From contig CATLLN010000001.1 of assembly GCA_950022695.1 (NCBI GenBank), forward strand, positions 186,001-250,000: a DNA stretch of 64,000 nucleotides, given 5' to 3'. The notes under the pieces are model-generated. The model was not told where the DNA came from and ran no database searches. It was given only the letters and a program-made list of their open reading frames with translations. Positions 54,601-56,179 of the stretch are shown here, in pieces. This DNA comes from an uncultured bacterium. GTDB lineage: Bacteria; Cyanobacteriota; Vampirovibrionia; Gastranaerophilales; Gastranaerophilaceae. Made by a program: the position numbers and the translations under genes. Numbering within the stretch: the stretch's first letter is position 1; each line of letters starts with the position of its first letter.

Positions 54601-56120
54601 TTATTTTTTGTGTTCTAACTTTTTAATTTTTTCAGAAAGATTTTCAAGTTCCTGTTGTTGTTTATTAAGTGTTTTTGCTTGAGTTTCGATTTCTGTTTGT
54701 TGTTTGTCTACTTTAGCTTTCAAGTCAGTGAGCTCTGTAGTAAACTCTTGTAGTTTTTCTGAGAGCGCAATAACTTTATCATTAAGTTCTTTAATTGCAT
54801 TAATTGCAGAATAGAACATTTCATCCCATCTGATTTGAAGCCATCCATCTTTGTTTTTTGTTACAGCATTAGGGAAAACTTTTTGTAAGTCTTGAGCCAT
54901 AATCCCTACTTGAGGTTTTTTATCTTTATCATTTTTGAAAGTGAAATGGTAGAACTTAAGTTTATTTAATTCTTCTAGTCCGCCTGAGAACGTTTCGCTA
55001 ACATTTTTTAAACGTATATCTGAGTATATTAGTTTGTTGTCTATACTGGTATCTACGTAGCTGCAGTTCCCCTTGCTTATACGTCTCCAGTTGCCATTAA
55101 TGCTAGGGGGGCAAATCTTTTGGTTGTCTCCCATATCTCCCCAGCTTGTAGGTGCAAGAAATTTATATTCACCCAGCTGTACTCCCGGTTGCCTATCTCC
55201 ATTAATTGCAACAGCCCAATCGCCTCCGCCTTTATAATCGTCAGCCCAATGCCGTTCAAGTAGATCGATAGCATCGGTTATAGCTCTTCCATCGCCGTCA
55301 TGGCCGTAGTGGGCTTGGATATAAAGTGGATAAGCTTTGCCGTCTTCTACAGATTTTGCACCTACAAATGTAGTTTTGCCGACAATTAGGTTTCCAGGAA
55401 TATAAACGGTATCATCTTCTGTACCAAGAACAACTGAATGAGAATATACAGCTTTTGCATTATATCCTATTGCTGTAGATGATTGTGCAGTTAGAGCAAC
55501 ACTTGCATTGTAACCAATTGCGGTAGACCTGGATGCTTTTGTGTGTGCGTTATAGCCGATAGCAGTGGAATATCTAGAGTGTTTGAAAACCATGCTACTT
55601 GGTTTGTTAACTTTTGCGTTATTACCAATTGCAATTGAGCCGTCATCATCAGCGACAGCATTATAACCTATAACTACAGTATCTTTACTGTTTTGAGTAT
55701 TAAAACCAATGCCTACAAAATTAACCGGATATTTAGATGTATCATATTTGTTATTACCAAATAGAACAGAGTTGATAGGTATCTTATCTCCGCTTTCTCT
55801 GATTCCTACATAACCATTAGGTCTTGAATTCATAAAAATACGCTGATTTCTGCCTTTTACATATTCAACTGCATTTGCAGGATCAGAATTCAGCATATCA
55901 AATATTTTATCTGAACGTTCTCTTGATATTTTTCTTGTTATCATTGGTGCTGTTGCGGCAAGCACAATTGCAACAATAAGCAGTACAACCATCATCTCAG
56001 CTAAAGAGAAACCATTTTTTCTTTGTTTTTTTATAGTTAAGGTAAGCTTATTTTGCCTAAAACTCTCTACTGGTGCGGCTTTCGCCCCCCCCCGAACTGG
56101 TGGGTATTGTCTTTTTTCAT
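54601..56120 (-). CDS. Prepilin / YadA-head-like / Peptidase_S74 chaperone fusion, 5' end out of frame at a G9 tract
   Basis: KNGFSLAEMMVVLLIVAIVLAATAPMI; STAIGYNAHTKASRSTAIGYNASVALTAQSSTAIGYNA; SDIRLKNVSETFSGGLEELNKLKFYHFTFK...PQVGIMAQDLQKVFPNAV. ATG 56118-56120 with AGGAGG is in frame only if the G tract changes by +1 or -2. Confidence 0.8.
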
Positions 56121-56179
56121 ATTCCCTCCTTTTTTATACCCCAGTATTTTATCATATTTAACATAAGTTATGCAAGAAT

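Follow-up and report, generated by a model that had tools for sequence, protein, structure and literature searches.

A poly-G tract places a pilin-like surface gene out of frame and recurs before prepilin genes in related uncultured gut bacteria

A G9 tract separates a start codon from a prepilin reading frame

Does a run of nine guanines immediately behind a start codon act as a switch for the surface protein encoded downstream, or is it an accident of one gene or one assembly? This question arose from a 64,000-nucleotide stretch of DNA (here called the window; positions are given within it) from the genome of an uncultured gut bacterium whose named relatives are Gastranaerophilales ('Melainabacteria'). 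An earlier note on the sequence had proposed that a G9 tract lying between a strong Shine-Dalgarno/ATG and a prepilin/YadA-head/S74 fusion makes a possible phase-variable pilin-like adhesin. Inspection of the minus strand confirmed the observation. A Shine-Dalgarno sequence AGGAGG (56130-56125) lies 4 nt before an ATG (56120-56118), the only start supported by such a sequence, and the first leader codons KKDNTHQF (56117-56094) are followed by the G9 tract (56093-56085; C9 on the plus strand), 27 nt after the A of the ATG. Read from this ATG, the G9 frame ends as MKKDNTHQFGGGRKPHQ* at a TAG stop (56069-56067), giving a 17-residue product. The long reading frame is open back through the tract (...KAAPVESFRQNKLTLTIKKQRKNG-FSLAEMMVVLL) and would be joined by a tract one base longer. 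This frame has no ATG, GTG or TTG between its upstream in-frame stop and the prepilin motif, and its first start is the ATG at 55995, which lies inside the membrane helix and past the cleavage site. No in-frame start skips the tract.

To determine what the long frame encodes, its translation was searched against protein family profiles. In the prepilin frame, a second leader segment (AKAAPVESFRQNKLTLTIKKQRKNG, 56084-56011) ends at the predicted G|F cleavage site (KNG|FSLAE) and leads into a prepilin N-terminal methylation motif and membrane helix (56025-55951), with matches to N_methyl (PF07963, 29.4 bits) and TIGR02532 (26.2 bits) that were both over cut-off. The leader is unusually long for a type IV prepilin or pseudopilin (about 30 residues). 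Two copies of YadA_head were detected (best stretch 55572-55504), followed by a Peptidase_S74 (chaperone of endosialidase) domain (55023-54859; 51.6 bits over a cut-off of 22) containing an SDIRLK motif that is invariant in 4 homologues, and a C-terminal helical (coiled-coil-like) tail (54828-54601) running to the stop codon. N_methyl, YadA_head and Peptidase_S74 were all above Pfam cut-offs. The YadA_anchor domain of YadA-type trimeric autotransporters was not found; only head repeats were present, and the protein ends in S74 plus coil. Assignment as an adhesin is an inference from domain content only. No sequence relative was found in the PDB, and an AlphaFold model built from 4 sequences, in which the tail is helical, was of low confidence (mean pLDDT 43.7) and was not used for a fold search. 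The gene is followed on the same strand by a 191-aa prepilin-like protein (N_methyl) without a tract (54589-54014) and by a 324-aa protein with a prepilin-like N terminus (54005-53031; no Pfam hit at 0.001).

The same tract lies before 18 prepilin-like genes of the genome

To investigate whether such a tract could have arisen by chance, the window was compared with dinucleotide shuffles. A 9-base run was expected 0.03 times per window, and 2 of 100 shuffles contained one. We next examined the whole genome (1.95 Mb in 37 contigs, AT-rich), which contains 22 G/C runs of nine or more, every one exactly nine, with no exact G8 and no G10 or longer. In about 139 kb of its sequence the G/C runs number 175 of length 4, 15 of 5, 2 of 6, none of 7 or 8, and 22 of 9, while A/T runs fall off smoothly to 10. 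The tract codons are rare here (GGG 9% of Gly, CGG 1% of Arg), indicating that the G run itself is kept.

Eighteen of the 22 runs lie between a Shine-Dalgarno-preceded ATG and a prepilin-like ORF, in 17 of them 27-28 nt from the ATG, and at G9 all 18 are out of frame. One further run belongs to a decayed prepilin 5′ end that still keeps its tract and leader (locus L021; contig C5, 128300), and three are elsewhere. The genome has 68 matches to the N_methyl family, so about a quarter of its prepilin-like genes carry the tract. Genes for pilus/secretion ATPases are clearly present, although the match to a prepilin peptidase (23.4 bits) was under the Pfam cut-off of 26.5.

The arrangement is widespread in one family and its frame is maintained

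To determine how far the arrangement extends, genomes of the order were searched for eight or more Gs located 20-50 nt before codons for FTL(A/S..)E(V/I). The pattern was found in 87 of 393 genomes and in 14 of 52 genera, and all but one of these genomes belong to the family of the window's genome. The reversed pattern, used as a control, gave next to nothing. Viral contigs held no instance.

Across 263 distinct tract loci, the prepilin frame is open from tract to motif in 262, whereas the other two frames are open in 30 and 22. This is expected only if translation is meant to pass through the tract. Tract lengths run from 8 to 13, rarely more, and the in-frame (ON) and both out-of-frame (OFF) registers occur, also within single genomes. 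Orthologous genes of the window's genome and a sister species differ in tract length: one pair (L010/L088) carries G9 and G11 with near-identical flanks, and another (L012/L090) is G9-OFF and G10-ON. For the window gene itself, the sister species has a poly-G at the same place, but its copy begins at a contig end and its tract length is uncertain.

These observations bear on whether the genes might be pseudogenes, or might be translated from another start with the short ORF serving only as a leader peptide. A short ORF of 12-20 codons does result at most loci, and one decayed copy exists. However, nearly all loci have no ATG, GTG or TTG between tract and motif, the ends of the short ORFs vary between paralogues, and the OFF genes keep intact ORFs (98-99% at least 150 codons). 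Moreover, substitutions between orthologues fall 489/199/124 at codon positions 3/1/2, indicating purifying selection on the gene bodies and that genes silent at consensus are expressed at times. We consider this alternative very unlikely. A test for peptide constraint on the segment between tract and motif gave no third-position excess (412/756/619 at codon positions 1/2/3), so no claim is made that this segment is conserved as peptide, only that it stays open.

It was also considered that the true tracts might be one base longer and in frame, the genes being ordinary and the consensus wrong. Homopolymer consensus is error-prone, all 22 tracts of this genome share one length, and several tracts of the sister species lie at contig ends. 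Against this, A/T runs of up to 10 are present in the same assembly, and two C9 runs inside coding frames on the other strand (L009/L091 and L013/L051) are in frame at exactly nine in both sister species. Furthermore, OFF tracts in both directions occur in MAGs from several projects, some with contig names typical of SPAdes and MEGAHIT, which a single-assembly error does not explain. Assembly error thus appears improbable.

Most tracts are out of frame at consensus

With strict start calling, 30 loci were ON and 208 OFF, against one third ON expected at random. Shuffling lengths among the loci of each genome predicted 22.5 ON of 112, whereas 13 were observed (P 0.0004); because loci are related by duplication, these probabilities are indicative only. 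The OFF excess exceeds simple random switching, leaving two readings: either selection keeps most pilins silent in most cells, or expression partly comes from recoding at the tract.

In the second case the tract would be meant to be out of frame, and transcriptional slippage or ribosomal frameshifting on the G run would give low steady expression without DNA change. Consistent with this, G9 is uniform in the window's genome, G GGG GGG is a potential -1 slippery run, and leaky recoding at poly-G contingency loci is reported in Neisseria (Johannessen 2012, cited in PMC9187656). However, the shift needed is one base more in the window's genome but mostly one base fewer in that of another species (G007), and both registers occur within single genomes. 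In addition, about one locus in eight is simply in frame, tract lengths differ between orthologues, no Shine-Dalgarno-like stimulator precedes the tract and folding around it is unremarkable (z -1.35). Recoding is not excluded, but it seems an unlikely basis for the system.

Taken together, the data support the interpretation in the earlier note, and we favour with good confidence the model that the G9 tract is a contingency (phase-variation) locus. In this model the ATG at 56120 starts a prepilin leader, slipped-strand mispairing of the G run during replication changes its length, and only lengths in frame with the FSLAE motif give a membrane-targeted, processable pilin-like protein, the gene being OFF at the assembled length. 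Replication slippage and switching between cells of one population are inferred here from the comparison of genomes, without reads or a second strain of this species. The exact G9 of all 22 tracts, tighter than in the sister species or G007, is unusual for freely slipping tracts and is the observation least easily reconciled with the model. Loss of mismatch repair was considered as a background for hypermutation but was not supported, as MutS1 is present.

The tract leader appears to be a movable module

Homologs of the window gene in three other species (G026, G027 and G007) have ordinary short leaders without a tract, suggesting that the tract is an added module rather than a structural need. 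Within the window's genome, genes L017 and L018 have identical leaders but differ upstream (67% identity) and in the body (62%), and L004, L008 and L020 behave similarly. The tract leader thus appears to be gained and shared between prepilin genes. A more speculative possibility, which we regard as tentative, is that the family runs an antigenic-variation-like system, in which dozens of prepilins carry a shared leader module that spreads by recombination and the default is silence, with only a few pilins in frame per cell at a time, such that surface identity is drawn stochastically from a silent repertoire.

Relation to known poly-G switches

The kind of switch is known. In the gut commensal Bifidobacterium breve UCC2003, a G10-G11 tract lies in the coding sequence of a sortase-dependent pilus gene, the annotated length is out of frame, a one-base change fuses two ORFs, lengths vary in the population and the ON length rises in mice (PMC9187656). 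Those are sortase pili of a Gram-positive, generally with one or two clusters per genome. Here the genes are prepilin (type IV-like) genes of an unrelated lineage, the tract lies between the start codon and the prepilin signal, and 18 to about 40 loci are present in the genomes examined. Intragenic G-tracts of Neisseria glycosylation genes and phase variation in C. jejuni are also mentioned in that work. Poly-G/poly-C contingency loci of Neisseria, Campylobacter and Helicobacter appear likewise to toggle the frame of surface-structure genes at many loci per genome, with lengths mostly of 8-12. In Neisseria, however, the phase-variable pilus gene would seem to be the tip/biogenesis factor PilC, with the pilin varying by recombination, whereas here the prepilins themselves carry the tract in a repeated leader module. 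Use of such a switch on the prepilins themselves, at this scale and in this lineage, was not found in the literature searched, which was partial.

Gastranaerophilales are common but mostly uncultured non-photosynthetic relatives of cyanobacteria in animal guts, and little is known of how they meet their host. A genome-wide set of mostly OFF, switchable prepilins suggests strong selection on surface variation (immune pressure, phage or niche attachment). Annotation pipelines probably call these genes as truncated or with internal starts, and the repertoire is likely overlooked.

Other tracts and prepilin architectures

In the sister species, a LysM-like protein is split by an out-of-frame G10 (L089, contig C29), so poly-G switching may reach beyond prepilins. 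In G007, a large repeat protein resembling polymorphic outer-membrane/autotransporter proteins has an in-frame G10 (L127, contig C63). In both the window's genome (L015, contig C4, 30535-30543) and the sister species (L057, contig C2), a G9 run lies at the 3′ end of one gene, directly before a gene that by eye resembles an acylneuraminate cytidylyltransferase, a possible switch on a surface-glycan pathway.

With respect to the prepilin bodies, a cluster of large prepilin-S74 proteins was found in the window's genome (contig C3, 153155-160521), with similar clusters in most genomes of the genus, and prepilin-S74 fusion seems a standard architecture here. Finally, the tract-bearing prepilins L002, L010 and L016 match DUF6613 (PF20318; L010 only below its cut-off), indicating that part of this family of unknown function consists of pilin bodies.
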